Positions 296-18,673 of a DNA stretch of 22,046 bases are shown in pieces. A model generated the notes under the pieces. It worked only from the letters and a program-made list of their open reading frames with translations. It was not told where the DNA came from and did not search any database. The position numbers and the translations under genes are program-made. The DNA comes from a virus. Every line of letters begins with the position of its first letter. The first letter of the stretch is position 1. The DNA is taken from positions 1 through 22,046 of IMG/VR virus record IMGVR_UViG_3300009128_001004. The stretch is one strand, 5' to 3'.

Positions 296-324
296 TTGCT
301 TTGTAGAATAATTCGCGGTATGAT
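296..324 (+). promoter_or_regulatory. Possible sigma70-type promoter upstream of the late genes
   Basis: A TTGCTT box (296-301) and a TATGAT box (319-324) are separated by 17 bp. The -10 box matches the consensus at 5 of 6 positions and the -35 at only 3 of 6. Transcription would start near 331, leaving a leader of about 105 nt before the first gene. The surroundings are AT-rich. This is prediction by eye only. Confidence 0.3.
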
Positions 325-435
325 ACCCATCATATGTTCTGCAAAATCGGTTTAAACATGGGGGAAATCGGGTGCAGCCTTGCTCACTGATCTCAATATG
401 ACCTTACACCAATACATTACGAGGAGATATCGGGC

Positions 436-639
436 ATGGTTATCACACAAGAAAGTTCCCCAACTGTTTGGGGGCGTTTGAAAGCACAGTGGCTCAAAGA
501 GCAGCAACCCACTTTTGTTACCGCTGGATCAATGCAATATCAGGCCGTTCAAGATGCCGAAACCAAAGAGATTGTATTTCGGCCGGTTGCTGATGCGGGG
601 CTGATGGGATCGACTTCCACAGCGGTGTTGGTCAAGTGA
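436..639 (+). CDS. Small protein of unknown function (67 aa)
   Basis: I do not recognise this protein. The ATG follows a GAGGAG ribosome binding site at 421-426. The stop overlaps the GTG start of the next gene in a GTGA junction, so the two are probably translationally coupled. The product has a mixed N-terminal half with two tryptophans and no membrane segment or signal peptide. It sits two genes upstream of the large terminase, where a small terminase subunit often lies, but at 67 residues with no visible DNA-binding motif I do not assign that role. Confidence 0.6.
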   Translation: MVITQESSPTVWGRLKAQWLKEQQPTFVTAGSMQYQAVQDAETKEIVFRPVADAGLMGSTSTAVLVK

Positions 640-2725: not shown

Positions 2726-2779
2726 GCACACTTACCGCAGCCCATCACGCTCTACGAGGAGTGCAAAAAGGAGCATTAG

Positions 2780-3175
2780 ATGAAACCACACAATGTTGAC
2801 CATTTTATTGAGCAAGATAAAGGAATACCTGCTTTCGTCGGTATGGTATTTCCGATCCTTTTGTCCCTAAGTTTTAGCCGGGACATTACCTTGATGATTA
2901 TATGCTCTATTGTCACCTTGGTTCTGCTGCCTTTACTTATCATAATCGTCCTGAAGCTGGCCGTGGAGTTCACGAAACTGCCTAAAGAGAACTTCTCCCT
3001 TGACCGTGACAATCCGATGTTGGTCGGAGTTATGTCGTTGGTTGGTCTTTTCTTCCCGCTCGCTTTCCTAATTGTACCGGCTGGCTTGTGGGCAGTCGCC
3101 TTTGCACTGTCCAGAACCCTTGTTTTTCATTTGCGAGAGCGTCTAAGCCTTGACCTTAGACCCAAAAGGCAATAA
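2780..3175 (+). CDS. Three-helix membrane protein of unknown function (131 aa)
   Basis: The ATG is preceded by AAGGAG at 2768-2773 with 6-nt spacing. The protein has hydrophobic segments at about residues 16-32, 36-60 and 80-112. The first two are separated by a short SRD turn, and a charged loop (64-78) precedes the third. The C terminus is basic (RLSLDLRPKRQ), probably cytoplasmic. Size and topology would allow a holin, but it is not beside an endolysin. It sits between terminase and portal, where an inner-membrane protein is unusual. No family is recognised. The gene ends just before a promoter-like element and a hairpin, so it may be the last gene of the first transcription unit. Confidence 0.65.
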   Translation: MKPHNVDHFIEQDKGIPAFVGMVFPILLSLSFSRDITLMIICSIVTLVLLPLLIIIVLKLAVEFTKLPKENFSLDRDNPMLVGVMSLVGLFFPLAFLIVPAGLWAVAFALSRTLVFHLRERLSLDLRPKRQ

Positions 3176-3178
3176 AAT
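3150..3178 (+). promoter_or_regulatory. Promoter-like element before the portal
   Basis: TTGACC (3150-3155) and TAAAAT (3173-3178) are separated by 17 bp. Each matches 5 of 6 positions of the sigma70 consensus. The element overlaps the end of the membrane-protein gene. A start near 3185 would lie at the edge of the inverted repeat 3187-3205 and about 45 nt upstream of the terminator-like hairpin. Confidence 0.45.
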
Positions 3179-3179
3179 G

Positions 3180-3194
3180 ATCCCAATAGGTAAT
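3180..3194 (+). repeat. Intergenic motif copy 2 (ATCCCAATAGGTAAT)
   Basis: This is the second copy of the motif at 55-69, with 13 of 15 positions identical. It overlaps the expected transcription start of the promoter-like element and the left arm of the inverted repeat. It could be an operator or a phage-specific promoter. Confidence 0.5.
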
Positions 3195-3205
3195 AATATT
3201 ACCTA
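3187..3205. promoter_or_regulatory. Inverted repeat, possible operator
   Basis: TAGGTAAT and ATTACCTA form perfect 8-bp arms around a 3-nt centre. The repeat is placed at the predicted start point of the 3150-3178 promoter, which suits repressor binding. In RNA the 3-nt loop would allow a weak AU-rich hairpin. Confidence 0.45.
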
Positions 3206-3227
3206 AAATTTAGATAATAAACTTTTG

Positions 3228-3269
3228 CGGCCCATATGACATCGCAGTCATATGGGCCGTTTCTGTTTT
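3228..3269 (+). terminator. Rho-independent terminator or attenuator
   Basis: A perfect 13-bp stem (CGGCCCATATGAC with its complement, 3228-3240 and 3247-3259) closes a 6-nt loop. It is followed by TTTCTGTTTT. The stem is too perfect for chance. It lies immediately before the portal ribosome binding site, so it would limit read-through into the whole structural operon unless antitermination or a further promoter is used. Confidence 0.75.
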
Positions 3270-3283
3270 AAGGACATTGAGCC

Positions 3284-4894
3284 TTGGTACTGAACCAACT
3301 ACAAGACATGTTGCCCCCAAGATCGTTCAGTTTGAATGAGATCGATGGCTTTCCTGTTGACACTTATCAGCATAATCTCTCACGCTATCAGGAATACGAA
3401 AAGTGGTACGACGGAACGGTACTGGAGGAAACCAAGATACAGGGGAAGGATGAAGTAGAGCTTTACCCGGTAAAAATCAATCCGATCAAAGGTGCGGTGA
3501 CTAAACACGCCGCTGTGCTGTTTGGCGATGTCGTTGATGACGGTCGCCCTCTTGTTGTTCCTCGGCTTATCCCCCGTGTAAAAGACGAAGCCAGTAAGAC
3601 CCTGGCAATGGAAGCTGAAGAAGTCCTGAATATGCTCTGGTACGAGAACAACGGTCGAGCCTTGCAGCTCAGGGCCGGTATTCTCTCCCAATACCTGGGC
3701 GGTTGTGTCTTCAAGATCAGTTACGTTCCCTGGGAGACCTGGCGCACGATCCCCCTTCGCATCGAATTACTGCACCCTCGTCATTTTGTCGGCGTGGCCG
3801 ACGCTTCCGACTTCTGGCGCTTACGCCGGGGGTGGGTGGCTCGACCTGTATCTGCTGAGTTTGCCAAAGATGAATACAACGTCAAGATCGACGATAAGTA
3901 CGGGATGCTGGTTGAGGACTGGCGCAGGCCCACCTACAGGATCACTATTGATGGGAAGGTAGCGCACGTAAACGACTCACCGAGAGATGGTGTGAACCCC
4001 TTCGGTGCTGTACCGCTGGTTTATATCCCCCACTTTCGTGAAAAGAGTTTTTACGGCACAAGCATGATCGACGGCCTTGAAGGGTTGATCCGAGAGATGA
4101 ACCTGCGGGCTGCTGACTTTGGGGATGCCGTTTCAGACGATGCTCACTCCTGGTTGGCAATGGTCAACGTGAGCGGTACGCCGCGTATTCTGGAATTAGC
4201 CGAGGGTTTGAAGATACTCGATCTGAAGTCTGCTCCTTCCATGACCGGGAACGCCAAAGACCCGAATGTTTTCCCACTCAAACAGAACTCAGCGTCGGAT
4301 GCTATGGGCAAGCTGTACGACAAGCTGTACCAGCAATTCCGGCGTGATGCCAATATTCCGGCAGTAGCCGATGGCGAAGATGAAGGATCACAGCGAAGCG
4401 CCATGACACTCGCTTTCCGCATGTGGCCACTGGCTTCACATGTGACTATGGAGCGTATCTTGTGGACAACCGGCCTGAATTGGGGCAACACGATGGCGCT
4501 CCAAATGATGGCTAAGCCTGAGATCGGCAAGAAAATGGTCGATAAGGGCTTACCGGCTATCTCTGAGCAGCACTTGGGTATGCGTATGCGCCAGGACTTC
4601 GCACCCATGTTCCCGCGTGATCGGGAAGCCATAATCAATGAAATCGCAATGCGAGTAGCGGCTCACGCTGGCTCCATTGATACGATGCTCGAACTTACGG
4701 GGGACGTAGAGGACATTCCAGCCGAGAAAAAGAAGATTTTGCAATGGCTCAAAGATGTAGCCAAGGCCCAGGCTGTACCAGTGTCCACCAATATGCAACC
4801 ACAGAAAAAAGATGAGAAAGATGGCAATAAAGCCGAAAAATCTAATCAATCTGCTGGAGGCAACAAACAAAATGCCGAAGAAAACCGATCCTAA
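3284..4894 (+). CDS. Portal protein (536 aa)
   Basis: This is the dodecameric ring at the capsid vertex through which DNA enters and leaves. It is assigned from position after terminase and before scaffold and capsid, from length, and from portal-like features: an N-terminal segment typical of portals (SRYQEYEKWYDGT), a G-T-S stretch with a long following helix near residue 258 (IDGLEGLIREMNLRAADF), and a late helical YQQFRRDANIPA segment (~345). The C terminus from about residue 505 is a Lys/Asn/Gln-rich tail. I chose the TTG at 3284 because AAGGA (3270-3274) lies about 9 nt upstream; the next in-frame ATG at 3308 has no such site. The 3' end overlaps the scaffold start by 23 bp. Confidence 0.88.
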   Translation: MVLNQLQDMLPPRSFSLNEIDGFPVDTYQHNLSRYQEYEKWYDGTVLEETKIQGKDEVELYPVKINPIKGAVTKHAAVLFGDVVDDGRPLVVPRLIPRVKDEASKTLAMEAEEVLNMLWYENNGRALQLRAGILSQYLGGCVFKISYVPWETWRTIPLRIELLHPRHFVGVADASDFWRLRRGWVARPVSAEFAKDEYNVKIDDKYGMLVEDWRRPTYRITIDGKVAHVNDSPRDGVNPFGAVPLVYIPHFREKSFYGTSMIDGLEGLIREMNLRAADFGDAVSDDAHSWLAMVNVSGTPRILELAEGLKILDLKSAPSMTGNAKDPNVFPLKQNSASDAMGKLYDKLYQQFRRDANIPAVADGEDEGSQRSAMTLAFRMWPLASHVTMERILWTTGLNWGNTMALQMMAKPEIGKKMVDKGLPAISEQHLGMRMRQDFAPMFPRDREAIINEIAMRVAAHAGSIDTMLELTGDVEDIPAEKKKILQWLKDVAKAQAVPVSTNMQPQKKDEKDGNKAEKSNQSAGGNKQNAEENRS

Positions 4895-5489
4895 TACCAA
4901 CGAAAACCCTGGGGGTGACCCTGGGGGCGACGCTGGAAACACTGATTGGGAAAAAAGCTACAAAGGGCTGCAACGTAAGATGGCGGCTCTGCAAACTCAA
5001 GCTGACACCTGGAAAGATGAGCGTGACGGCGCTATCACCGAGGTTCAGTCCCTAAAGGCTGACTTGACTACAGCACAAGGCGAGAAGGAAGCGCTGGAAA
5101 CCAAGGTAACCGGGCTTGAGACCCAAGTCACTGAAGCAACCGAACGAGCGGACAAGGCAGAAGGAAACCTCGACCGCGCAGAGCTAATCATGTCTGACTA
5201 TCCTGAGCTGGCTCAGTTCGAGACTGATGGACTACTGCCTGAGGCAGAAGATACCGAAGCCCTGAAGGATAAGCTCGAAAAATTCCAGAAGGCACTCGAC
5301 GCAAAGGTCGATAAAGGGGTGGATAAAACGTTGGAAGGCGCAACCAAGACCCCCAACGACGATGATGATCCCGATGCAAACCTAACCGAAGATCAACTCT
5401 ATGAGCGCATGATGGAGGCTGCTAACAGCGGAGACACCAAAGAACGTGAACGCTTGCAGGCTCAGTACGACGCTCTAACCGACAACTAA
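4872..5489 (+). CDS. Capsid scaffolding protein (205 aa)
   Basis: This is an internal chaperone for procapsid assembly, inferred from position between portal and major capsid and from composition. The protein is acidic and strongly helical. A Gly/Asp/Pro-rich N terminus is followed by a continuous coiled coil over about residues 26-110, then an acidic linker (DDDDPD) and a charged C-terminal helix. The frame is open further upstream to an ATG at 4812, but I place the start at the ATG at 4872. That ATG has GGAGG at 4856-4860 and gives only a 23-bp overlap with the portal gene. No protease motif is seen, so removal of the scaffold would depend on another gene or on exit. Confidence 0.8.
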   Translation: MPKKTDPNTNENPGGDPGGDAGNTDWEKSYKGLQRKMAALQTQADTWKDERDGAITEVQSLKADLTTAQGEKEALETKVTGLETQVTEATERADKAEGNLDRAELIMSDYPELAQFETDGLLPEAEDTEALKDKLEKFQKALDAKVDKGVDKTLEGATKTPNDDDDPDANLTEDQLYERMMEAANSGDTKERERLQAQYDALTDN

Positions 5490-5501
5490 CGAGGCTAAAT
5501 A

Positions 5502-6863
5502 ATGTCTGATTTTGACACTTTCTACGGCTCAAACCCTTGGGCCAATCTCGATAAGAACGAGCGCCGCTGGTACGACCCCAACTTGGTCGAACTCTACCGG
5601 CAACGCTCGGTATTCTCCGGAACGATCCCCTTCGCGAAAGACATGAAGTCGAAACGTTCCCGCACGATGACCATTACCCAATTGCTGGATGTCCATCCTG
5701 ACAGTTCGCCGCTGTCCATGCGGCAATTGTGGATGCCCGCTGCTCACATCGACAGCCGGGCAGTCGAGGTCACTTTCAACCGCTACGGTGGGAAAGTCGC
5801 ATTCCATGAGTTTGACGACCTGATCACCTACTGGAAGAAAGACAATAAGGCCGGTATTCGCCGCATCCTGAATGGTGCTTTAGGGCATCACATGATTGAT
5901 GTGCTGGACATCCTGGCCCGTAACGCCTACATCAAGGGCGCTCTGGACAGTGGTTTCAATCTGATGTCCGGTGGCGGGATTGATTTCTCCGCTCTTGGTA
6001 CTGCTGACGTTTTCGACCCCAAAGTTGCGATGGATGTGTGGCTCGGTATGAGCTACCGTGATGTTCCTGCTGCTCAGGGTGTGAATGGCGCAGGCGCTTC
6101 CATCCTGGCTTACACCAGCCCCGGTGTGATCCACGATATTCAGGGTGACGAGAGCTACAAAGCCGCCGTTGAGTACGCCAACCCCAAGATGGCGACCAAG
6201 TACGAAGCTGGCGCTTACAAAAACGTTCGCTTCCAGCAAACCCCGAAATGCACCCTCTACAACTGTGGCGAGATCATCGCTCGCGCCCCAGTTTCCGTTG
6301 CGATCAGCGCCGGTGACGGTTCCCCCGATCCGACTGCGACCAAAGTTGACGGAACCTACATGGTTGGTCAAGACGGTATGACCCATTACATCACTTTGGG
6401 AACCTTCACCACTGGCTTGATCGACGATCTGGCCGTTGGCGATGTGATCTCCATCCATGCATCCACCACCAGCGCGTGGGGTGTCACCGATGGCGTGAAC
6501 TTCCAAGAAGGCAAACTACACAACCTGCGGATCGTGAGCATTGACACCGATAACGGTCGTCTCGCTTTTGATCGCCCCGTAATGGTGGACTTCACCACCG
6601 ACCTGGGTGGCGGCACTTTCGCCTACATCACCAAAGGTCGCCATATCCACACGACCATTTTCGTCGCAGCCCCCACCGGCCTGGTTTCCGGTATCGCAGT
6701 TCCCCCGCGAACCCACACCCCGCCCCCCGTTGATGACTTCGAGAGCATCTATCGGTTCTCCTGGGACGCTTACCTGGGCCACCAGCTTTATCAGCCCGAG
6801 GTCTTCGAGGTCGTCTTCTCTGCCGGTTCATTCCGCTACAAGGGTAACAAGGTAATCCAGTAA
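5502..6863 (+). CDS. Major capsid protein, HK97-fold, N4-gp56-like
   Basis: The 453-residue product is the expected shell protein: it directly follows the scaffold with its own GAGG site (5491-5494) and has highly even, well-adapted codons. The segment at about 202-248 (AYTSPGVIHDIQGD to YKNVRFQQTP) resembles the conserved core of the N4-gp56 family. A beta-rich insertion (about 285-365), including VGDVISIHA, interrupts that core before the closing strands HIHTTIFVAAPTGLVSGIAV. Inserted domains of this type often decorate or stabilise the capsid surface. The stop overlaps the next ATG (TAATG). The family name is from recall of the pattern, not a search. Confidence 0.88.
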   Translation: MSDFDTFYGSNPWANLDKNERRWYDPNLVELYRQRSVFSGTIPFAKDMKSKRSRTMTITQLLDVHPDSSPLSMRQLWMPAAHIDSRAVEVTFNRYGGKVAFHEFDDLITYWKKDNKAGIRRILNGALGHHMIDVLDILARNAYIKGALDSGFNLMSGGGIDFSALGTADVFDPKVAMDVWLGMSYRDVPAAQGVNGAGASILAYTSPGVIHDIQGDESYKAAVEYANPKMATKYEAGAYKNVRFQQTPKCTLYNCGEIIARAPVSVAISAGDGSPDPTATKVDGTYMVGQDGMTHYITLGTFTTGLIDDLAVGDVISIHASTTSAWGVTDGVNFQEGKLHNLRIVSIDTDNGRLAFDRPVMVDFTTDLGGGTFAYITKGRHIHTTIFVAAPTGLVSGIAVPPRTHTPPPVDDFESIYRFSWDAYLGHQLYQPEVFEVVFSAGSFRYKGNKVIQ

Positions 6864-7498
6864 TGAAATTCTCTGACCTGAAGCTGAAAGTCATCCGACT
6901 ATTGCAAGATGAAGACATTTCAGCCGAAACCCTACACGATGCAGCCACAGCGGCCTTGGATGCCATTCTTCCTTGGTTTGCGCTTCGATCATCGGTGAAG
7001 CTCACGGGCGATGGGGAAAAGGACACCTTTACCCTGCCTGCTGACCTGTACGAGATCGACGCTGTGATGCTTTCGGCTTCAGGTGAGACCTTGCCCCAGG
7101 CTGTGCTACAGCCCGGAAATATCCGGGGTGCAGTTCACTCCTGGGGTGACTGGATCGAGTTCCCTTACGGCTCAATCTCGTTCTCCAAAGTGCTAAAGAC
7201 CGGGGAAGAACTCACACTGCTCTATCGCTCCCACTGGCCCAAACCAGAAGATTTGAACGATGACGACTACGAGTTCTCAACCCCGGAGTATACGCACAAT
7301 CCTATCGTAATTTACGCCGCTGCTCACGCTCTGACATCGAAGGCGAGTGAAACCGCCAATATTCGACAGTTCAGCACACGGGTTGATAGTGGGAACCCTG
7401 AGCATAACCCCATTGCCGATCGGGTTGACTTCCTTCACCGACTATTCACTACCGAAATGGATCGACACCCCCGGCAGATCGCAGGAGCAAGAGCATGA
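6863..7498 (+). CDS. Head-tail adaptor (connector) protein (211 aa)
   Basis: It is the first gene after the major capsid protein and is translationally coupled to it (TAATG). The helical N terminus with AALDAILPWFALR, followed by a GDGEKDTFTLPADLYEIDAV strand pair, resembles phage adaptor proteins that bind under the portal. The C-terminal half is helical and ends in a basic RHPRQIAGARA tail. It probably forms the ring joining portal and tail stopper. The ATGA junction with the next gene supports one operon. Confidence 0.65.
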   Translation: MKFSDLKLKVIRLLQDEDISAETLHDAATAALDAILPWFALRSSVKLTGDGEKDTFTLPADLYEIDAVMLSASGETLPQAVLQPGNIRGAVHSWGDWIEFPYGSISFSKVLKTGEELTLLYRSHWPKPEDLNDDDYEFSTPEYTHNPIVIYAAAHALTSKASETANIRQFSTRVDSGNPEHNPIADRVDFLHRLFTTEMDRHPRQIAGARA

Positions 7499-8034
7499 CA
7501 GCGGTGCATATCGTCCCACTGATAACCAATCGTCTCCGTGATCACCTCACTGAGCAACTACAGACCATTATTGCCGAAGATGATCCCATCCGAGCTAACA
7601 GTATCGTGGTGGGGAGGTTCCAAGAGAACCCTACGAAGCCAAAGGTCTACTTGGCTATTCAAGGAGGTGATCCCGAAGACCCGAAGTATAGAGATGGCAT
7701 CGTAACACTGAAAGATTTCGACGACATTGGCTTCACTGTCCCAGGCCGAGAGGTAGGGGGTGGTGAGTTTTGGTGGCGTAGAGGCGTTGTTCAATTCGGC
7801 TGCTATTTTCGTGGCAAATCCGAGGATGATGCCCGTGAACTTTCATACGAAATGCTCGGTCGTGTTGCTCAGGTACTTGGGAACACGCGAGTGTCAGACC
7901 TAGAAGATAACTTCGGTGAGCAGGCATTGAAACTATACCAATTCGCCAACACGATTTTTGAGAGTGGCGGCCCAAATAATTACATTTGGCGTGGGAAGGT
8001 TTTCTGGACTTGCCTTACCGAGAGGAGCTTATAA
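7495..8034 (+). CDS. Putative tail completion/terminator protein (179 aa)
   Basis: It lies between the adaptor and the major tail protein, the usual place of neck and tail terminator genes. An N-terminal helix (ITNRLRDHLTEQLQTII) is followed by a strand-rich core and a closing FWTCLTER strand. That arrangement fits the alpha/beta fold of tail terminators that cap the tube and bind the head. No motif is decisive. A separate stopper gene is not evident, so this or the adaptor may cover that role. The start overlaps the previous stop. Confidence 0.55.
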   Translation: MTAVHIVPLITNRLRDHLTEQLQTIIAEDDPIRANSIVVGRFQENPTKPKVYLAIQGGDPEDPKYRDGIVTLKDFDDIGFTVPGREVGGGEFWWRRGVVQFGCYFRGKSEDDARELSYEMLGRVAQVLGNTRVSDLEDNFGEQALKLYQFANTIFESGGPNNYIWRGKVFWTCLTERSL

Positions 8035-8037
8035 AGC

Positions 8038-9120
8038 ATGTCAATCAATTCTCAAAAAGGTGTATTCGCCTTTGGCCCCCAGGCTGAAAAGGGCGCTGTC
8101 GCCACTAAGTTCTACCGCCATAAAGCTGCGGATGTCGATCTGAGTGTGCAAGACGACACTCGGTTAGGCCCGCCCGAAATTGGCGGCTCTCCCGTTCCGA
8201 GCTTCGCCTATAAAGCCGGTTATGTTCCGGCTGGTGGAGCGACCATTTACCCTCGCTTGGAGGACACCTTCGGCTGGTTAGGCTACGGTGTCATGGGTGG
8301 CGTGACCACGCTGACCGGCGATGGGGTAGGTGAAAATCCCCCGGTTGGTGTGAATGATCACAAATTCCACTTTGCCGCTGATGAGGGTTACGTCCCCTGG
8401 ATGTCGGCCCGCAAGTTGATCCCCGGTGGCGACGGTGTTGCCGCCTTGGGCGAGCAGTACCTGGACATGAAAATGATCGGGTTCGGCATGAACATTATGA
8501 ATGATGCCCCGCCCTCTGCCCGTGTCGATCTGATGGGCCGCGACTTCGAGATCGAAGAAGACCCCAATGCAAATTGGACTTGGGAAAACACCTACGAAGC
8601 CTTTGAGAGCCTTCCCGTTGGCGCTGAGGTTGGTGGGTACTTCAAAGTGCCTGATTTCTCAGCCGATGAGTTGCCCCTGGTTGGTGCGGCTGTCAATGTC
8701 CAGAATGCTCCCGAAGATATTCGGCAGGCCAAGGTCTACGGTTCTCCAATGTTGGAGGATATCACTATCATCCAGCGGGCCGTGACTATTGATGCCGTTG
8801 TCAAGTGGAGTGATCCTGCGCTGTATCGCTCGATCCTGACTGGATCGTCATCTGGTACGACCTGGACAGCTCAGCCCTGGACTTCGGACTTCGATATGTT
8901 GGCGGTTTCCCCCGCGAATATCCCCACCCAATCCATCCCTTACCACCTGCGATTGCAGGCTGCTAAGGTGATTTGGCAGGTGAATGGTGGTATCCGGTTA
9001 GCCGGGAACCAGGCGCTTACGATGCGCCTCACCGGGACTGTGATCGCCCCTGACTCTGGCGACTACTTCTCCCTCACCCTGCGGAACGCCGTGGCCGCTT
9101 ACGCTTGGCCCACCCCGTAA
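8038..9120 (+). CDS. Major tail (tube) protein (360 aa)
   Basis: The 360-residue, beta-rich protein lies after the neck genes and before the tail chaperone pair, which is the position of the tube subunit. The N terminus (GPQAEKGAVATKFYRH) and the paired-strand middle resemble the phage tail tube family found in siphoviruses. The gene starts 4 nt after the previous stop, with a GAGAGGAG site just upstream, and ends in a double stop TAATAA followed by a stable hairpin. Both fit a highly expressed gene. It is longer than many tube proteins, so it may carry an extra surface domain, though I cannot place one. Confidence 0.75.
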   Translation: MSINSQKGVFAFGPQAEKGAVATKFYRHKAADVDLSVQDDTRLGPPEIGGSPVPSFAYKAGYVPAGGATIYPRLEDTFGWLGYGVMGGVTTLTGDGVGENPPVGVNDHKFHFAADEGYVPWMSARKLIPGGDGVAALGEQYLDMKMIGFGMNIMNDAPPSARVDLMGRDFEIEEDPNANWTWENTYEAFESLPVGAEVGGYFKVPDFSADELPLVGAAVNVQNAPEDIRQAKVYGSPMLEDITIIQRAVTIDAVVKWSDPALYRSILTGSSSGTTWTAQPWTSDFDMLAVSPANIPTQSIPYHLRLQAAKVIWQVNGGIRLAGNQALTMRLTGTVIAPDSGDYFSLTLRNAVAAYAWPTP

Positions 9121-9129
9121 TAACCCTTA

Positions 9130-9155
9130 GGGGAGGGGGGTTCGCCCTCCTCCCC
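9130..9155 (+). terminator. UUCG-capped GC hairpin after the major tail gene
   Basis: An 11-bp stem (one G-U pair) of G-rich and C-rich arms closes a TTCG tetraloop. No T-run follows, so this is more likely an mRNA-protecting 3' hairpin or a partial attenuator than a full terminator. It would lower expression of the downstream chaperone and tape-measure genes relative to the tube protein. Confidence 0.6.
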
Positions 9156-9207
9156 GATACGACATTTATATGACATCAAACCCCCATACCTAAAGGAAAC
9201 ATACAAC

Positions 9208-9645
9208 ATGCCGCTGAAACTTACAGCACCTATCGAGAAAGAATGTGTATTAGAGAAATCTGACGAACTGTTTGGATGTGAAGGTGATCCCACCCGCGTA
9301 ACCATCCGACAGGCTACCCAGGCACAGCATGAGCGCCGATCTGACCTGTGGGCAGAAATGACCCAGGAAGTATTTGGCGACCGGGTTGCTCCCGACTCTG
9401 TGCGTCTTATTCAGCGTATTTCGCTCCCTGAGCTTCATCGCATTGAAGTTTATTGCACCCTGGCCGGTTCCAATATTCTCGGCGTTGACGGTGAACCGTT
9501 GTTCAAGTTCAAGAACGGCAAGCTGGCAATGACTGAATACGAGTTCAACATTGCTTGGGGCCAATTGCTCCCTGAGATCGTGAACGAAATCCATGAAAAA
9601 GTTCTAGAAGTCAATCCGACCTGGGGGAAACAGGGGGAAGAATAG
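9208..9645 (+). CDS. Tail assembly chaperone, short (G-type) product
   Basis: The 145-residue product lies between the tube protein and the tape measure, the position of lambda gpG and its equivalents. These bind and wrap the tape measure during tail assembly and are absent from the finished virion. AAAGGAAA at 9192-9199 serves as the ribosome binding site. The protein has a strand-rich N terminus with DPTRVTIRQ and a helical remainder, and it ends at the paired stops TAG TAG. The -1 reading frame is open across its 3' end and continues to the tape-measure start, the classical frameshift arrangement. Confidence 0.8.
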   Translation: MPLKLTAPIEKECVLEKSDELFGCEGDPTRVTIRQATQAQHERRSDLWAEMTQEVFGDRVAPDSVRLIQRISLPELHRIEVYCTLAGSNILGVDGEPLFKFKNGKLAMTEYEFNIAWGQLLPEIVNEIHEKVLEVNPTWGKQGEE

Positions 9646-9911
9646 TAGGGGATGCTATCGAGGAGCTAAAAACTGCAATTGGGGATTATTACGGTGCGGT
9701 TGCTGAGCTAAGGGAGGGGATCGGTTCATCTCTCCCTGAAAAGCCTGACGCACTGGTTTACTACGAAATGACACAGGAGATGGGTATTCCGCTCGTTGAG
9801 GGTGGAGTGCGTGACCAGCCCTATATCTGGCTAATGGAATATGGCATATGTAAAAACGAAGTAACCCTATGGGAAACCATTCTTGAACGTCAAAGTGAGC
9901 AGGAGAAATAA
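9208..9911 (+). CDS. Tail assembly chaperone, long (G-T type) -1 frameshift product
   Basis: This product has about 234 residues: the 9208 frame up to the slip near 9625-9637, then the -1 frame to the TAA at 9909-9911. The -1 frame opens after a TGA at 9594-9596 and has no ATG, GTG or TTG before 9768, well inside its helical domain. It reads as ordinary protein, with GDAIEELKTAIGDYYGAVAE and later QPYIWLMEYGICKNEVTLW. Shifting must therefore occur in 9597-9645, which contains two runs of five G (9623-9627, 9633-9637). In known systems the extension binds the tail tube protein. The TAA overlaps the tape-measure ATG. Coordinates include the frameshift and are not one continuous frame. Confidence 0.8.
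9623..9642 (+). promoter_or_regulatory. Probable -1 ribosomal slip site
   Basis: In-frame codons are TGG GGG AAA CAG GGG GAA GAA TAG. At each GGG codon the P-site tRNA can re-pair perfectly one base back; the A-site re-pairing (AAA to GAA, or GAA to GGA) is imperfect. Neither is a canonical X-XXY-YYZ heptamer in the zero frame. The G-rich, Shine-Dalgarno-like tract itself may stimulate slipping. I cannot tell which run is used. Confidence 0.6.
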
Positions 9912-12900
9912 TGCCTATTCAGCCATCCCGCAAACTCGGTATTGATGAATTTGAAAAAGAAGTTTTAGATCGCTTTAGACCTGGAAATGACAATAGGTTA
10001 GGTGCTCTCCATCGTCGTATGGATGGCTTCTCTAGGTTCTACTTCTCAGAAGAAGGCACAGAGAAGGGGATGTATGTTGATCTCGTTCCTGGCTACCGCC
10101 AATCCTTTGGTGGTGAGCGGTATTCGACCTTCGAGGTCAGAACTGACAAGGGTTCGAGCGGTTGGATTGTCGGTGGGCAGTTGCAGGCGGGCCATGATGA
10201 AGAACGGTTCGTAAACCCCCTGGATGCACTCGCTACCGCTGTATCGAACACATTTAGACAGCGACCCGACCAGAAAAAGGGGGCATCTTACAGCAAGGGC
10301 TTCATCAACAATCTGCAAAGGGGTATTGACGGCAAGGTGGCTGGTTCACCTGTGCAGAACGTCTATTCGACTACCAGTGAGGCTTCCGCTCACAAGGGAC
10401 ACTCTCAAGTCAGTGTAGTTTATGACCGTGGCGTTTCCCCGGTTGAGGCTGATGCTCGGCTGCTCGATCAAGCGTTCTCCGCAAACACACCTTTGACCGG
10501 CTACATGCTAGATAAGGACACCTACGGCGAGTCCACTCGCCTTGTACCCTATGGGATGGCGGTACATGGTGATCAGGTCTTGCTTGCCAGGGATAACTAT
10601 CGCAAGGCTCAGAAGGTGAAGGCCGGTGAACGTGAAAGAATGGCTCTCCTGAGACCGGACGGATCTGTCTCTCAACCCCTGCCCCCGACCGATGCGTCTG
10701 TCCTGGGGAATGTGGGTATCCCCACCACTCAGCGTCACCGGCAATCAAACCTTATCTTCGAGAACGAGACCCAACAGCGACACGGTATCTTGTCGTCTAT
10801 GCTGATTGCCCCTGTGCCATTTGCTTCCGGTTCAGCCTATACCTACGGTAAGGCCAAGAACAATTGGGGCTATCGCACTGCTTTTGACAAGGACACCATT
10901 GACGTAGAAGGTTTTGTCAATCGAGATGGCGAAAAGCTGGACTTTGCCCAACTGTATCAGGGCAAGCTAACGATCGATGACCAGCGTTTACGGGATCGAG
11001 CGGCAGATGGGAAGACGCTCAGAGCTAATAGCACGTTCAGAGTAGGTTCGTGGCAGCACGACGACGACTCTGAAGCGATGCCAATATTCCTAAAGACCGG
11101 CAACCGCCCGGTAATGTACCGGGGCTTAGTGATGCACACGACCCCAGGAGAAGGCGAGGCCGGTGCTATCGAGCCAATGTACGGCGAAGATGTTGACAAA
11201 GCAGCCCTAGCAAAACGGATGGGATTAGACCCCGATAGCTTCCGCTTGGAGGCTTCATCTGCTCAGGGTATTTACATGACCGCTCACACGCAAGAAGTGG
11301 TCGATGCGTCATTCAAAAGTGGCGCCAAAAAAGCCGGTAAGCTGACCGCAGTCGGTGCTAATGCCCCTTGGGATATGGCGACCGGCGAAGTCAAGTCTGG
11401 TGAGTTGCAATTACGTACCGCTCTAGGGACATACACTAACGAGACCCAACGGGAATTGATGGGTTTAGCCCTGGGCGAAACCGGACGAACCTTGGGGAAC
11501 ATGCAACCAGATGGGCCGCTCAATGCTGATCAGTTGGGGAAAGATTGGGCAGCATTACACGGTGATGATAGCCTGACATCCTACGACTTTTACGGCGATA
11601 TGTTGGAAGGTCTGGACGCACATTATCGGGGACTGGATAAAGCCGGTCAGAAAGCATTCAAAGACAAGTATGATATGGCCTTTGGGGTAAGAACCTGGGT
11701 GGAGATGGGTGAGGTTTCTCAGTCCCAGGCGGCTCGGCAACGCAAGATCATGGCTGAATCGGTTGGCGAGGAGAATGTCGGCCAACGCCTGCGCTATGAA
11801 GAACGTGACGGAAAACTGTATGGTGAGTTTTTCGCTGATAACGCTACGATCATGCGCAACCTGGAAGAATTTGCCCCAGAGTACACAGGTAAACCCCCGA
11901 TTTTCAACATTGAGACCATGTACGCCATGACCAAGCGTTATCCTGAGCTTGCTGATCGCTTAGGGGTTGACCCCCGGATGCCCGCAAGTGCCACAGGTGG
12001 CGAAAATCCGGCTATTGAGGGCTGGCGACATGCTTTTGCAGCTCAATATTACAAGGAAAATCCTAAATACGTTCCGCACCTGACGGACGATCACCGGGCA
12101 TCTGTAAATAAGAGCCAGGCCGCGGCTGCATTGCAGTCTATCTCGATGAATGTCAAAGAAACGACTTCTGACATGGAAGCCTTTGACATTGCTGAAAAGG
12201 CATTCGATGAAGCTGGAATAGACACTTCCAAGAACCTGATCGGCTTCGGTAACACGATTATGGAGTCTCCCCGGCAGGCCCGGAATATTGAGGCTTTTGA
12301 GAACGAAGTAGGTCGATCTGGATACGGACGCACCTACATGGATGCACTTACCGGCAGTTTAGAGAATGTCGTCAAGGAAGGTTCGGACGTTGGTTTCATC
12401 AAAGCGCAGGAACGATTGTCGCAGAAACGGGAAGATGTTTTCGGCAAGGATACCCCTAGCGACCTGATGAAGAAACTGCAAGGGCGCACAGTTCCCGGCG
12501 CTACTTTCGCTAAATACGAACTCAGTCATATTCTTGAGCAAGACGAAATGGGCTTCACGCCCAAGAGTATCGAGCAGATGGTGATCTCCATGGGGATTGC
12601 TGGCCCACAGCGGAACGCAGCCGTCAGGGATATGACCAAGAAGATTAGGTCAGGCAATTATTACACCCTGGCCGCACGTTACCCGCAACAAAGCGCGTCG
12701 GAAATGGCTATTTACAAAGCCCGGATGATGCCGTCTGAAGTTGCTGATACCGAGCACCCATTCGTCGCTGGTGCTTTCAATACGCGGAACACTGGCGACT
12801 CTGATCGTGACCCCTTATTCAGCAAGATTTTGACTGGTGGGTGGGACGAACAGGCTCAGGCATTCACTGAGTTGCTTGACAAAGAGCGCATTGCGGCTAT

Positions 12901-15900
12901 GGCTGTAGGCAATGGTGAACTTGAGGCAGACGTTATCAACCGAGAGAAATTCGGTACTGATGATGTCAATAAGGACGTAGATCGAGACAGCGTGGCCGAT
13001 ATGGTCGCAGGTAAGCAACCTATGTCTCGAACCTTTACCCGCAAGGACATCGCCCACCTTCAGAAGACGATCTCAGACCACGAAACAGCGGCAAGTAACA
13101 TCGGTGTGGCCTTCAACACGACGCGCTTGATGCTGGCTGCTACCAGTGGGCCGCTCCATGACGACGCTGGTCTCTACGACACGATGGCAGCTCCCTATAA
13201 CGCCGCTCTGGATGCTACGTCTGCAAACTCGTCGGCAATGGTCAATATCATGCGGAGTGCGACCTTTACATCTGGCGGCGATCTAATTGCCAAAGTCGAT
13301 GCCGATCAGAAAGGGTGGACTCATTTCTTCCCGAATGACTCGCATGAAATGCGGGATACATTCATTCGGTCGATGGTGAACGACCTTACTCACCCCAATA
13401 ACGAGCGAGATGGACTTACAACCGCTGGTGATGTGGCCGCGCACCTGGGTACAGACGAATACAACCGGGCAGAGATCAAACACGGTCTTGAGCAGGCCAT
13501 CGAAGGCGGCGCAAGCAGCAAAGAGATCACCAATCTCCTGGCCGGTTCTGCGAATAGCGCCGGATTAGTTGCCGGTGGATCGGACTTCGAGACCACCCCG
13601 GCCTATAAAATGATGATGTACTCTGCTGCGGAACGCACAGAGAGAAGCATCCAAAACCCGAATAAAGAGAATTTCCAACGGGCCGACTTTGCCGATCGAC
13701 AGCTTGTAAAGGGTAAAACGCTCGCAGATCTCCGAGACCATAAAGACCATAAAGCTATCGGCGTTCTCAACAACTTCCTGAAACGGGTTCCCAAGGGGAT
13801 CATGAACGCCCCGGCGAATGTATTGCACCATGTCTCTAAGTTAGGTGGAGCGGTGTCTGATTTTGCCGGAACGATGCTCGAAGGGATTATCCCCTTGGAG
13901 CACTTGGCGCAGGTCGATGAAGGCCCGGATTTCATGGCAGACCTTCAGGCTCAATTTCGGAGTGATGAACCCGATCTAACCCCGCGATCACCCGGTAGTC
14001 ACTCTCCTGTGACCGTCAATACTGGCCTAACACATCAGGATGTTGATGCGCCTGCTGCGTCTGGTAGTCCCCCGCCTCCGGAGGAACCTCCACCGGCTGC
14101 GGCCGCAGCTCCCCCGGCGCAACCCCCACAGGGGCCACCCCAACAACCGCCACCCCCGGCGAACTTCGAGGGTAATCCAGGTGATTATGACGCTCAACGG
14201 GCAGGGCAACAACCGCAAGGGCAAGCTCCTACTGCTCATGATTATGGCCCCGCTATGGCAGCAATGTCGCCTGAGATGCAGGAATTGCAATCGAATTACA
14301 TGCATGCCGCTATGGCATTCTTCCAGAACCCGACCGTAAGTAACGATCAGCGGATGAAGGAATTGATGGCGCGGGTAGATGTGAATTTCCGTAGCAAGGC
14401 CGTTGATCCAATGGTCAACCGCCAGAAGATCAGAGCGGCAGGTAATGTACTCCAGGGGATGCCTGCTGGAGTGGCCGGTTTCAACCAGCAGGTTATGGCT
14501 GCGGCTGAGAGCACAGGGGTAGACCTGAGTAGCGTTTCGCGTGAAGAAGCGATCCAGATGGCTCTACAAAACGATGCAGTTGGCTTCCTGAGCCAAGTTC
14601 CGACTGAGAATATCGCCTATATGAAGAAGGCTTATTCGTCTGCTCAGCAAGCAAAATCGCTTATGATCAACACCCCGGTTGGGAAATTGGGTATTGACGG
14701 TGCTGAATACAGTGAAACGTTGGGCAAGCTCGACGACTTCCTCTCAGGAAACTCCGATGTAGGTAAGAGTCTTCAATCCTTTGCTGAAATTGCGACGGCC
14801 TTGGATGCTTTCAAACCAGAAATCAAAGCTGCAAAAGAGGGCTTTGCGGAACTCACTGAGGCTAGTAAAGATATCGTCAAAGAGATGGAGGGCTATCTCG
14901 AACTACTAGCAGATGAAGATACAAAGCCAGCCGATCGCAAGCAATATGCCAAAGGGCTGAGAACTGAGCAGTTGAAGCTTCAGAGGCAGCAATTGACAGA
15001 CCAGCGCGAGAGTTTACTTTCTGAGATTGGTGATATCCAAGGCTCTGCGCCTGATGATCCTCGTCGAAAAGCCTTACCCGGCCTTCAGGAAGACCTAAGA
15101 GGCGTTACAGGCGACCTCGGGAATATCATGGGGCAGGTCAGCGACGACCGGGATGGGTACAAGGGGAGCGCTGCTCGCAAACTGATTGGTGGTTGGGGCT
15201 TGATGTATATGAGCCACCTAATGGGCATTGGGATGAAAGATGTCACCCAAGGCTACGGTGAAACGCAGCAAGCAGGGATGCAGAACGCGACTCAGTTAGG
15301 TTCATACTTCGGCCCAGGGGCGTACAGACCGCCCACTACTGAAATGGAATACCAAGCAGCACTCGCTCGCTCTGGTGGCTTCGGTATGATGGGATTGCGA
15401 AGTCTTGCAACACCATTTTTAGGTACTCCGGCTCAAACAGCAGCGGGAGCTGCTAAGACTGGCGTAGGGGCTGCTGTGTTGTCCGGCTACGTCGCTGATG
15501 CATTTGGAGCAACGATCTCAGCCGGAGCAATGGGCTTGGTCGGTGGCGTGGCTGGTGGGCTGTATCTAGCCGGTGATTACGCAAGTCGTAGAACTCACCC
15601 CGACGATACCGCCCGGTCGATGTATGCAAACTACGTACAGTTTGATCGGTATGAAGACCGTGACGGCTTTTTCAATAAAATGGCTCAGGGCGCTCAGGGT
15701 TGGGGGTATCTGTACAACAATTACATATTATCTAAGGATGGAAACAACGCGACCCCATTTGCCCTTGCTCAGAAAGAGGGAGCGATGGCCGCTGAGAGTG
15801 TGTTCGGCGGTAGCTTTATGCCTGATTTTGGGGGGATGACTCCTGAGGTTATGGCGGCGTTTGTGGAGCAGGGATCAGGTTACTTGACTGACCAGTACAG

Positions 15901-18673
15901 TTCTGAGGTCGCCAATCGAGCACTAGCTGCTTATGGGCAATACAACAGTAGACGCACATCAACAACGTTTCTAACCGGCCAATCCACTGGAGTGACACCG
16001 GATGATTATGCGGCTGTGATGGCTACGTCGCCAAACCTTGAGAAATACGCATCAAGTGTCGCCGCCGCTATGGGCAAGATACCGTCCTTGCAGAACACTC
16101 TGGAAATGTCAGGGTTTATGGTCGAAAGCAATTTCGACACAGATGATAAACAGGCACGATTTGCTGCTGGTGTATCGGCTTACTCCGAACTCCCATATAT
16201 GCGTGAGGTCGCTCGTGCATCTGGTAGATCGCCCGAAGACTTCTATCAGTCCGTCATCCCCACTACTTATGATGGATCACTCCCTGAGCAATTGCGGGTA
16301 ATGATGGCCGCAAATGTCACGGCTAAGGCACAGCTAGGGTATTACGGGACAGATGAAGCGGCAACCCGGCTCGAAGACCTAAAAACTCAGGACTTGGACA
16401 GTCTCGATTTCAATCAACTGAAGGTCAATCTTGACACAGAACAGCGAGAAGCGACGAATTTAGCCGTTCAACAAGGAATGACCGACTTCTTCAAAGGTAT
16501 GGGGATCGACTCTGCATCAGCGAAACAAACGGCTATCAACTTTGGCCCAAGTTGGACGATGTCTCAACGGGCCGGAATGGGCAACACGTACCAGCAGGTC
16601 TTTGGGGGTGCAGAAGCACGCGGGTTCTTATCTGCGGATCAGGCTGCGGCATACACTGCGTTTGGTGGTTCGATGTCCGTTGGTCAGGCAGGTAATTTCG
16701 CAAATATTGCTCAGGGATTGATGTCTGGTGATCCTTACACCTGGGCTACCCATGCCCCCGGCAGTATTCCTGCAGGTGTCGCAGCTCCTGTGGGAATGAA
16801 TATGTCCGGCGCTCCGTCTAGTGTTTTCCGACCGTTTGAAACGAGTTGGGACATGTTCGGCAACCTTGGGCAAGGCATTTCTGCATCAGAGTTTGCTGCT
16901 TCGGTCGTGGGATCGACAGACACCGGCACGTACGCTCAATCTATGCACTACAACCAGGGCGGCGCTGGTACTTATTCCAGCACGTTCCTGAATAGTTGGC
17001 GTGGCGTTGGCCCATCCACGATGATAAACGGTCAATCGAAGACCATGCTCGAAGCTGGTGTCGATGGCGTTACCGCATCGAACGGGATGACCTACACAGG
17101 CGATACAGGCGTAAAGCTGTGGGGCATCCAAAACAATTACAACAATCAGATGGCCTCGATCGGAGCGCAGGCGGCTCAACACGCCGCTTCTTGGGCTTTC
17201 CAGACCGGTATAGGGCTAGAGAACTACGCTCCGGCTGATCCCCGCACCGGAGAAGTCTTCGATATTCAAGGCTCTGGCGGTTTTTGGGGTCTTCAGGATC
17301 GCCAGATGGCGCTCTCCCGGCGACAGGCTGCTTGGGGCGCACAATACCAGCGTCGCAGTATGGCCTTGCAATGGGAAGGCTACGGGCTACAAGGTCGCAG
17401 TTTGGATATCGGCGCACAGCGGATAGAGCTGCAAGACCATGGTCTTGACCTGCAACGGCGTGGCCTGGCTCTCTCTGAGCGGCAGCACGAAATCTCCATA
17501 GAACGTCAGGAGAGCAGTATCGGCTTCAACCGGGCAATGCTCGGTCTGAACCGCCAGCAAACACTAATCCAACGGCAAGGAACTCGTGACGATTGGGTGA
17601 TGCAGGATCAGGTACGCGATCTACAGTGGCAATGGAAGTCCGAGGACTTCGATGAAAGTGTCCGGTTTATGTCCGGTCGCCAGCGGAAACTCGCTGAGCG
17701 TCAATTCGGGCGTGATACCGTCATGCACAACATCGAAGGAGATAACGTCACTCGCCAGCGAGAACGCCAGAAGCAAATTTGGTCGCTCGAAGACAAGCGG
17801 TTTAGATTACAAGAGAAACGCCAGAATGAGGAAATCGAACACCAGGAAGAACTGATCGAAATTCAAAAACAGCAGTTCGAACTCCGTAGAGAGCAATTCG
17901 CCCTCACTGAGGAGAACTTGGTTCTGAATAAAGAGCAGTTTGAAATCCAGAAGGAGCAGTACGAGCTTCAGGGCGAGCAGTTAGAACTCCAACAAGAGAA
18001 CATGGAGAAGAATATTGCTTTCCAGAACGAGCGGCTTTCTCTTGAGCAAGAGTCCCAGGAGCTACAACGGGCCTATGCGACCGTCCAGCACGAGCTGCAA
18101 GGTTCAGCCATTGGAGCGGCTATCAGACAGGCTGAGCAAGCCAAAGAGATAGCCGAACAGACGGAGATCGCAGGCGTAGAGCAGAAAAGCATCCTTGATA
18201 ACTGGTCTCAATGGCAAAACAGATGGCCTGAGGAGTTTCAGGAAGCTTTTGCCGGTGCTATCGAGGCCGTTGCTGCGAAGTTCCGGGCTGTAATGTCGGC
18301 GGCGGCAGCTTCTGTCAGAGTGGGAGTAATCCAAGGTGGAGGAGCTTCCGGTTTCACTCCCTATATCGGCGGTAATTCGACCAATTCTTCGGGCGGTGCA
18401 ACCCTGGGCAAGAAAGGGGGCGATGCCCTTGGCGGTCACCGCATGGCGTTTGAAGCTGGCGAAGTTGGCGAGTACGAACCTGAGATATTCGTCCCTGAGC
18501 AATCTGGCACGATCATCCCGATGCACAAGATCAACCCTTGGACTAACCAGCGAATTGAAACCCCCGCCGTAGCCAAGGAGAGTAAAGCTGGCCCGACGAT
18601 TGTCAAGGTCTATATCGGTAACGAACAACTGGACAACCGGATCATTCGGGTTGTTGAAAGCGAGCTGGTCTAA
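9911..18673 (+). CDS. Giant tape measure protein with N-terminal RNA-polymerase-like module (2920 aa)
   Basis: The gene begins in a TAATG overlap with the chaperone frame and ends in another with the next tail gene. Residues 1-~1300 do not resemble a tape measure. They contain two polymerase-barrel signatures in order: K469..K477 after beta-like strands, and R923-Y-P, H949-P-F-V-A-G-A-F-N, D963-S-D965-R-D967. These are followed by IGVAFN (1064-1069). A Pro/Ala/Gln linker spans 1381-1440. The rest is tape-measure-like: helical, with a Gly/Ala hydrophobic stretch (1841-1888), heptad arrays (2480-2528, 2655-2703) and the closing motif 2850-2870 (PEIFVP..SGTIIP). Inferred role: sets tail length, and may carry a virion RNA polymerase into the host. 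Tape-measure identity is firm; polymerase activity is a hypothesis. Confidence 0.85.
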   Translation: MPIQPSRKLGIDEFEKEVLDRFRPGNDNRLGALHRRMDGFSRFYFSEEGTEKGMYVDLVPGYRQSFGGERYSTFEVRTDKGSSGWIVGGQLQAGHDEERFVNPLDALATAVSNTFRQRPDQKKGASYSKGFINNLQRGIDGKVAGSPVQNVYSTTSEASAHKGHSQVSVVYDRGVSPVEADARLLDQAFSANTPLTGYMLDKDTYGESTRLVPYGMAVHGDQVLLARDNYRKAQKVKAGERERMALLRPDGSVSQPLPPTDASVLGNVGIPTTQRHRQSNLIFENETQQRHGILSSMLIAPVPFASGSAYTYGKAKNNWGYRTAFDKDTIDVEGFVNRDGEKLDFAQLYQGKLTIDDQRLRDRAADGKTLRANSTFRVGSWQHDDDSEAMPIFLKTGNRPVMYRGLVMHTTPGEGEAGAIEPMYGEDVDKAALAKRMGLDPDSFRLEASSAQGIYMTAHTQEVVDASFKSGAKKAGKLTAVGANAPWDMATGEVKSGELQLRTALGTYTNETQRELMGLALGETGRTLGNMQPDGPLNADQLGKDWAALHGDDSLTSYDFYGDMLEGLDAHYRGLDKAGQKAFKDKYDMAFGVRTWVEMGEVSQSQAARQRKIMAESVGEENVGQRLRYEERDGKLYGEFFADNATIMRNLEEFAPEYTGKPPIFNIETMYAMTKRYPELADRLGVDPRMPASATGGENPAIEGWRHAFAAQYYKENPKYVPHLTDDHRASVNKSQAAAALQSISMNVKETTSDMEAFDIAEKAFDEAGIDTSKNLIGFGNTIMESPRQARNIEAFENEVGRSGYGRTYMDALTGSLENVVKEGSDVGFIKAQERLSQKREDVFGKDTPSDLMKKLQGRTVPGATFAKYELSHILEQDEMGFTPKSIEQMVISMGIAGPQRNAAVRDMTKKIRSGNYYTLAARYPQQSASEMAIYKARMMPSEVADTEHPFVAGAFNTRNTGDSDRDPLFSKILTGGWDEQAQAFTELLDKERIAAMAVGNGELEADVINREKFGTDDVNKDVDRDSVADMVAGKQPMSRTFTRKDIAHLQKTISDHETAASNIGVAFNTTRLMLAATSGPLHDDAGLYDTMAAPYNAALDATSANSSAMVNIMRSATFTSGGDLIAKVDADQKGWTHFFPNDSHEMRDTFIRSMVNDLTHPNNERDGLTTAGDVAAHLGTDEYNRAEIKHGLEQAIEGGASSKEITNLLAGSANSAGLVAGGSDFETTPAYKMMMYSAAERTERSIQNPNKENFQRADFADRQLVKGKTLADLRDHKDHKAIGVLNNFLKRVPKGIMNAPANVLHHVSKLGGAVSDFAGTMLEGIIPLEHLAQVDEGPDFMADLQAQFRSDEPDLTPRSPGSHSPVTVNTGLTHQDVDAPAASGSPPPPEEPPPAAAAAPPAQPPQGPPQQPPPPANFEGNPGDYDAQRAGQQPQGQAPTAHDYGPAMAAMSPEMQELQSNYMHAAMAFFQNPTVSNDQRMKELMARVDVNFRSKAVDPMVNRQKIRAAGNVLQGMPAGVAGFNQQVMAAAESTGVDLSSVSREEAIQMALQNDAVGFLSQVPTENIAYMKKAYSSAQQAKSLMINTPVGKLGIDGAEYSETLGKLDDFLSGNSDVGKSLQSFAEIATALDAFKPEIKAAKEGFAELTEASKDIVKEMEGYLELLADEDTKPADRKQYAKGLRTEQLKLQRQQLTDQRESLLSEIGDIQGSAPDDPRRKALPGLQEDLRGVTGDLGNIMGQVSDDRDGYKGSAARKLIGGWGLMYMSHLMGIGMKDVTQGYGETQQAGMQNATQLGSYFGPGAYRPPTTEMEYQAALARSGGFGMMGLRSLATPFLGTPAQTAAGAAKTGVGAAVLSGYVADAFGATISAGAMGLVGGVAGGLYLAGDYASRRTHPDDTARSMYANYVQFDRYEDRDGFFNKMAQGAQGWGYLYNNYILSKDGNNATPFALAQKEGAMAAESVFGGSFMPDFGGMTPEVMAAFVEQGSGYLTDQYSSEVANRALAAYGQYNSRRTSTTFLTGQSTGVTPDDYAAVMATSPNLEKYASSVAAAMGKIPSLQNTLEMSGFMVESNFDTDDKQARFAAGVSAYSELPYMREVARASGRSPEDFYQSVIPTTYDGSLPEQLRVMMAANVTAKAQLGYYGTDEAATRLEDLKTQDLDSLDFNQLKVNLDTEQREATNLAVQQGMTDFFKGMGIDSASAKQTAINFGPSWTMSQRAGMGNTYQQVFGGAEARGFLSADQAAAYTAFGGSMSVGQAGNFANIAQGLMSGDPYTWATHAPGSIPAGVAAPVGMNMSGAPSSVFRPFETSWDMFGNLGQGISASEFAASVVGSTDTGTYAQSMHYNQGGAGTYSSTFLNSWRGVGPSTMINGQSKTMLEAGVDGVTASNGMTYTGDTGVKLWGIQNNYNNQMASIGAQAAQHAASWAFQTGIGLENYAPADPRTGEVFDIQGSGGFWGLQDRQMALSRRQAAWGAQYQRRSMALQWEGYGLQGRSLDIGAQRIELQDHGLDLQRRGLALSERQHEISIERQESSIGFNRAMLGLNRQQTLIQRQGTRDDWVMQDQVRDLQWQWKSEDFDESVRFMSGRQRKLAERQFGRDTVMHNIEGDNVTRQRERQKQIWSLEDKRFRLQEKRQNEEIEHQEELIEIQKQQFELRREQFALTEENLVLNKEQFEIQKEQYELQGEQLELQQENMEKNIAFQNERLSLEQESQELQRAYATVQHELQGSAIGAAIRQAEQAKEIAEQTEIAGVEQKSILDNWSQWQNRWPEEFQEAFAGAIEAVAAKFRAVMSAAAASVRVGVIQGGGASGFTPYIGGNSTNSSGGATLGKKGGDALGGHRMAFEAGEVGEYEPEIFVPEQSGTIIPMHKINPWTNQRIETPAVAKESKAGPTIVKVYIGNEQLDNRIIRVVESELV
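10748..13150 (+). other. Candidate two-barrel RNA polymerase module (residues ~280-1080 of the giant protein)
   Basis: The first barrel region runs from about residue 290 (an NNWGYRTAFDKDTI segment at 317-330 recalls the beta GYNFEDAI region) to LGETG near 522. It holds K469-S-G-A-K-K-A-G-K477, the same K-x7-K spacing as E. coli beta KMAGRHGNK. WDM (487-489) and LG...LALG (505-522) then mirror EDMP and LGVPSR...LG. The second barrel has RYP at 923-925, HP at 949-950 and the Asp triad at 963, 965 and 967. RxP-to-triad spacing is 40 residues against 35 in E. coli beta'. Single-chain relatives known from phages are YonO and the crAss-like gp66. The middle glycine of DxDGD is replaced by Arg. Confidence 0.6.
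14051..14230 (+). other. Proline/alanine/glutamine-rich hinge in the giant protein
   Basis: Residues 1381-1440 are dominated by Pro, Ala, Gly and Gln, with runs such as SPPPPEEPPPAAAAA. The segment is low-complexity and likely unfolded. It separates the polymerase-like half from the tape-measure half and is the natural place for flexibility or proteolytic processing. Confidence 0.8.
17348..18019 (+). repeat. Heptad-repeat arrays encoded near the tape-measure 3' end
   Basis: Block one (17348-17494, residues 2480-2528) reads as seven 7-residue units such as QRRSMAL, QGRSLDI, QDHGLDL and QRRGLAL. Block two (17873-18019, residues 2655-2703) reads QFELRRE, QFALTEE, QFEIQKE, QYELQGE and QLELQQE. 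The 21-bp DNA units are diverged. A hydrophobic residue recurs every seven positions between Gln, Glu and Arg, indicating long coiled coils. Confidence 0.8.

Follow-up and report, generated by a model that had tools for sequence, protein, structure and literature searches.

According to Chaban et al. (2024; PMC10770324), tape measure proteins fill the lumen of the phage tail and are injected during infection. In the Thermus phage P23-45, the tape measure gp96 is an experimentally proven case of fusion to a virion RNA polymerase, which is active, is found in the virion and is located on phage DNA 5 min after infection; the phages P74-26, G20c and TSP4 are named as close relatives with a fusion of the same type (PMC10770324). 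According to a suggestion made in the P23-45 study, the enzyme passes through the tail more easily because it is flat and lacks a clamp (PMC10770324). That study was the sole description found in a literature search for tape-measure-fused virion RNA polymerases. Given this precedent, the fusion described here from an uncultivated lineage is not of a new kind, as it was known earlier from P23-45, an isolated hot-spring phage, and the belief voiced in the original prediction that no characterised phage carries such a fusion is outdated.

The window, i.e., the whole stretch of DNA that was analysed, corresponds to a 22,046-base viral record of an uncultivated tailed phage. It contains an open reading frame on the plus strand (9911–18673) which starts with ATG and runs for 2,920 codons without interruption; the opposite strand of this interval, read in the same register, shows stops throughout. 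Upstream, the genes follow the order large terminase subunit, portal, scaffold, major head protein, SU10-type adaptor and tail tube, and downstream lie more large open reading frames, one of which exceeds 980 residues. The assigned features are:

1094–2725, plus strand: terminase large subunit (PHROG 2, E = 1.2e-15)
3284–4894, plus strand: portal protein (PHROG 64, E = 1.5e-17)
5502–6863, plus strand: major head protein (PHROG 1357, E = 2.7e-7)
6863–7498, plus strand: SU10-type adaptor protein (Pfam PF24175, exceeding its cut-off)
8038–9120, plus strand: tail tube or minor tail protein (PHROG 290, E = 2.3e-6; weak match to Pfam Phage_tube_2)
9208–9645, plus strand: small open reading frame between tube and tape measure, where a tail assembly chaperone gene is usually located, with no family match
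9911–18673, plus strand: fused gene of 2,920 aa, joining a two-barrel RNA polymerase-like module (N-terminal) to a tape measure protein

As the largest gene, located after the tube and chaperone genes and before the distal tail genes, the 2,920-aa gene sits in the tape-measure position. Both the intact reading frame and the gene order agree with the earlier proposal of a single 2920-codon gene in the tape-measure role. The protein is probably a tape measure with an N-terminal single-chain two-barrel RNA polymerase that would be carried in the virion, injected and put to transcribing the first phage genes. Fusion of a two-barrel polymerase to the tape measure is very likely, and the action of this module as an active, injected early polymerase is likely.

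The C-terminal half of the protein comprises the following elements:

14048–14185, plus strand: proline-rich linker from the polymerase module to the tape measure, aa ~1380–1425, approximate, assigned from sequence
14318–18670, plus strand: tape measure part, aa ~1470–2920, assigned from position and similarity to relatives
17495–17854, plus strand: family-defining coil W..ED..E..R...GR.R, used for finding relatives

The protein ends in EPEIFVPEQSGTIIP, matching the C-terminal pattern originally predicted, and its last ~54 residues weakly resemble Arthrobacter phage tape measures (tblastn, E ~0.1). The hydrophobic stretch included in the same prediction is weak, as no 21-mer of the window protein exceeds a Kyte-Doolittle mean of 1.5; the same type of scan finds such a stretch in the tape measures of some relatives. 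Searches of the 2,920-aa protein against Pfam, PHROG and NCBIfam gave no significant match to a tape-measure family.

Homologues were collected in two ways. A terminase search yielded four contigs, one of them with an identical terminase, and then nine more, and alignments of the coil motif near the tape-measure C-terminus yielded 29 loci and then more viral contigs and one metagenome-assembled genome. The motif [GAR]DxDxD is present within the first 60% of the protein in 22 of the 29 loci and DxDxD is absent in six, figures which count loci and not independent lineages because several are near-duplicates. The locus L050 carries IDADKD at the aligned site, and L090, L091 and L092 likewise lack DxDxD. 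Since DxDxD or the entire module is missing in some of the related tape measures, the tape measure does not depend on the polymerase module. The survey of homologues that the original prediction called for thus found the polymerase–tape measure fusion recurring in many of them. The contig with the identical terminase extends the window by ~6.8 kb upstream (L002:1-6786); this extension contains minus-strand genes, among them an SSB and a WYL-domain protein, and is possibly the early region.

A family profile built without the window protein matches its residues 287–1096 (E = 2.4e-47). The protein is 14–18% identical to the other members of the 17-member alignment. The full profile also matches L093, a relative kept out of the training set that has a canonical GDFDGD, at its R-x-P...GDFDGD region (E = 6.6e-9, 20.9 bits, as compared to a best score of 4.5 bits among 1,200 shuffled sequences) and L063 (E = 1.3e-11). 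At the corresponding regions of L034, L057 and L068 there are domain-level profile matches, with whole-sequence matches absent, and a leave-one-out search under default filters did not match L056 and L070. Scanning IMG/VR for short peptides of the N-terminal half yielded no confirmed relative. Family members searched by tblastn against 50,697 phage records gave nothing meaningful, and no isolated phage of the lineage was found there. DNA polymerase A was searched for in eight relatives and not found. Taken as a whole, the lineage is diverse in sequence and separate from P23-45, and appears to carry the same kind of fusion. The features assigned within the polymerase-like module are:

10769–13198, plus strand: RNA polymerase-like module, aa 287–1096 (leave-one-out family HMM and predicted fold)
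10769–11410, plus strand: putative beta-type barrel (DPBB-B) region, aa 287–500, approximate (position, invariant Gly and conserved basic residues; moderately confident structure)
11315–11317, plus strand: K469, conserved basic position (Lys in 13 and Arg in 3 of the 17 members)
11327–11332, plus strand: K473/K474, second Lys of K-G-x-G-x-K (the Lys column is invariant in alignment A10; in a wider set, Lys occurs in 18 of 27 sequences)
11393–11395, plus strand: K495 of an E-x-K motif (15 K and 1 R of 17)
11411–12502, plus strand: inter-barrel connector, ~365 aa (in the model of the homologue L043 mainly helices, for the most part predicted with confidence)
12503–12865, plus strand: beta'-type catalytic barrel (DPBB-A), aa 865–985, approximate boundaries
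12677–12685, plus strand: R923-Y-P925, equivalent of E. coli beta' R425-A-P427 (invariant in 17 homologues; same motif in known polymerases)
12797–12811, plus strand: D963-S-D965-R-D967, predicted catalytic metal-binding DxDxD (invariant in 17 homologues; model alignment)
13103–13126, plus strand: G1065-V-A-F-N-T-T-R1072, conserved G-x-x-Y/F-N-x-x-R, possible bridge-helix element

The combination R-x-P...DxDxD is the signature of the beta'-type catalytic barrel and is present in the window protein. In the 17-member module alignment, seven columns are invariant, five of which correspond to R923, P925, D963, D965 and D967, and the same five residues stay invariant after re-alignment with other boundaries. 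Their counterparts in E. coli beta' are R425, P427 and D460/D462/D464. The distance from the Arg to the first Asp is 40 residues in the window protein, compared with 35 in E. coli RpoC and 37–39 in gp96, gp64 and phi14:2 gp66. The aspartates D963, D965 and D967 had been singled out beforehand as catalytic, and the invariance of this DxDxD across 17 diverged homologues goes far beyond chance. Further downstream, the G1065–R1072 motif resembles the GYLTRRLVD segment of E. coli beta', a similarity that is no more than suggestive of a possible bridge-helix element.

This pattern of conservation also bears on the best-surviving alternative, namely that the module is a polymerase relic which has lost catalysis and persists in the tape measure in a structural or DNA-guiding role. 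Such a history would account for the extreme divergence outside the motif, for the loss of DxDxD or of the whole N-terminal part in some related tape measures, and for the Arg of the window D-S-D-R-D, where Gly is usual. It is nonetheless unlikely, as conservation within the family is highest at the Asp triad and R-x-P, positions that a relic would not keep. Furthermore, the Gly is dispensable, since the characterised enzyme phi14:2 gp66 carries DFDID at this place.

The beta-type barrel is less certain than the beta'-type barrel and is moderately supported; by analogy with gp96 it is presumably complete, and it would contribute lysines to the active site. The original prediction named K469 and K477, and K469 is indeed a conserved basic position. 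K477 was rejected as the catalytic Lys, as it is not conserved among the aligned homologues, and judging from the alignments K473/K474 and K495 appear to be better candidates. The Lys residues occur in the expected order, and much of the segment that bears them is modelled below a pLDDT of 50.

The AlphaFold model of the window module, built from the 17 sequences, is poor (pLDDT 57, pTM 0.37). Foldseek returned weak matches for it, with beta' at rank 1 (E = 0.16), and the matches listed by VIA are beta'/A190-type RNA polymerase chains with low Z. VIA aligns residues 641–737 of this model with E. coli beta' 351–458; since model residue 737 pairs with beta' 458 and D963 is model residue 739, D963 is placed at E. 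coli beta' D460. The model of the homologue L043 is of middling quality (pLDDT 65.7, pTM 0.55) and gave 87 Foldseek matches in the PDB at E ≤ 0.001, the top one with E = 1.7e-5 and a probability of 1.00. All 50 of the PDB matches listed are bacterial RNA polymerase beta'-type chains. By VIA, the L043 model reached Z values of up to 9.3 (Rpb1-type chains), and the 50 matches listed are all RNA polymerases by title. One of these alignments, to QDE-1 (5fsw, Z 8.8), extends from residue 196 to 891 of the model and covers both barrel regions, and the model helices 836–890 lie in alignments reaching Rpb1/beta' segments near the trigger loop. Global TM-scores are low (0.1–0.26), which is expected where one or two domains match within a large, partly uncertain model. 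P23-45 gp96 is absent among the PDB matches listed, and the BFVD matches listed include P23-45 gp64, weakly. On the strength of the Foldseek and VIA results for both models, the predicted beta'-type barrel is well supported and the beta-type barrel moderately so.

The best match among viral models in BFVD is A0A8S5SD80, annotated as a "minor tail protein" of Siphoviridae sp. ctnpt50 (E = 2.1e-4), which, from its modelled fold, may be another tail-protein-fused polymerase. The Acinetobacter phage ME3 protein A0A172Q021 likewise belongs to the top viral matches by fold.

When the module was searched by profile against Pfam, PHROGs, NCBIfam and the sequences in the PDB, nothing matched, and the N-terminal 1,350 residues had no match among PDB sequences. 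The N-terminal 1,400 residues searched against sequenced phages produced one short, unconvincing tblastn match (E = 0.03), and the scores of the module against gp96, gp66 and RpoC are no higher than those of shuffled sequences. For P23-45 gp96, it was likewise reported that no sequence-profile match is found, and many two-barrel families show no significant similarity outside the small DxDxD region (PMC10770324). The missing database match lowers certainty but is expected, as two-barrel families diverge outside this region (PMC10770324). The polymerase barrels proposed originally thus went unrecognised by profile searches, whereas the predicted fold does match two-barrel RNA polymerases.

Both barrels also occur in PolD (PMC10770324), and the module could accordingly be read as a PolD-type DNA polymerase or primase. 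This is highly improbable, as the 50 Foldseek and 50 VIA matches listed for the L043 model are RNA polymerases by title, including QDE-1, and a tape-measure-fused RNA polymerase is already proven in gp96. Ordinary tape-measure sequence in which the motifs arose by chance would explain why every profile library fails to recognise the module, but is barely credible given five polymerase-signature residues that are invariant in 17 diverged proteins, the GDFDGD of the out-of-sample relative L093 and the significant fold match of the L043 model.

The fold match and the recurrence of the fusion support the original reading of a polymerase hard-wired to the tape measure; injection and early transcription are what we infer from it by analogy. 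The C-terminal part would set the tail length, and with few tape-measure copies in the tail lumen, each would bring one polymerase into the virion. At infection, the tape measure would exit the tail before or together with the DNA, so that the polymerase would be delivered to the entering genome end, where it could transcribe the first genes of the phage with no need for the host RNA polymerase.

Several relatives contain further modules. Between polymerase module and tape measure, L043 (5801-5893), L042 and L067 carry a PD-x(n)-ExK-like motif that is absent from the window protein (e.g., PDFF...FTEVK in L043 and PDWL...IEHK in L067). The motif is suggestive of a PD-(D/E)xK nuclease domain, and Pfam gave no match for this region in the three loci. 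The relative L090, which has no polymerase motif and belongs to the same coil family, contains the HExxH metallopeptidase-like sequence HELGH (6530-6544), and HEFGH, of the same type, is found in another tape measure of this family (L036:9918-17753). A metallopeptidase domain has been reported for P23-45 gp96. L093 is a contig from a Saprospiraceae bin, and its tape measure is divided between two overlapping open reading frames: 159-9683 encodes the N-terminal protein (3,174 aa, with GDFDGD) and 9680-11158 the coil protein (492 aa). Finally, the relative G014 (82.9 kb) has an intein-splicing domain in a large gene in the terminase position (L098:5748-8414, minus strand) and a LAGLIDADG insertion in a DUF5131 protein (L096:10778-12544, plus strand).

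Among other single-chain enzymes, SPbeta YonO is a two-barrel phage RNA polymerase (PMC5467207), the layout proposed for the window protein, but YonO is a free enzyme of late-gene transcription. QDE-1, a cellular RNA-interference polymerase, also has both barrels on a single chain. Its invariant Lys pair K743 and K767 is 24 residues apart (PMC1750930), similar to the 21–22 residues from K473/K474 to K495 here. In contrast, QDE-1 is eukaryotic and not virion-associated, and ~124 residues separate its barrels (PMC1750930) as opposed to ~365 in the window protein. The crAss-like phage phi14:2 gp66 (PDB 6VR4) is a single-chain two-barrel virion polymerase with YRIP...DFDID; however, it lacks a fusion to a tape measure and its sequence similarity is not above that of shuffles.

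P23-45 gp96 shares with the window protein a single polypeptide with the polymerase N-terminal and the tape measure C-terminal, R-x-P...DxDxD in the catalytic barrel and a siphovirus-type gene order, and the P23-45 genome of 84.2 kb is close in size to the ~83-kb contigs of several relatives. No similarity between gp96 and the lineage was detected by hhalign, hmmsearch and blastp, in the module or the rest, and hhalign and blastp against P23-45 gp64 and TerL gave nothing. Common descent with gp96 is still conceivable, as gp96 itself shows little similarity to other polymerases. The two proteins differ in length and motif position, with 5,002 aa and DFDGD at 779 in gp96 versus 2,920 aa and DSDRD at 963 in the window protein, and the middle domains vary among relatives of the lineage. 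P23-45 also encodes a separate non-virion polymerase, gp64, whereas a motif screen of three ~83-kb relatives found no second open reading frame with a comparable polymerase motif; in contrast to P23-45, these phages may thus hand over to the host polymerase once the first genes are transcribed.

The family suggests that the fusion occurs widely among uncultivated phages, with great diversity in sequence. Its many natural variants can be used to examine what a two-barrel polymerase cannot do without, how such an enzyme passes through the tail tube and whether early transcription is coupled to genome entry. The connector is of particular relevance here, since that of gp96 is short and disordered (613–679) and forms no clamp, whereas the ~365-aa connector of the lineage is mostly ordered in the L043 model. 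A more tentative proposal, which we regard as possible though somewhat doubtful, is that the fusion arose in this lineage separately from that of P23-45 and has an ordered connector resembling a clamp, and that the N-terminus acts as a cargo bay whose modules (polymerase, nuclease-like and peptidase-like) can be gained, lost or exchanged. An ordered connector, if it forms a clamp, would bear on the idea of clamp-less passage put forward for P23-45, as loss of the clamp would then not be needed for passing the tail.
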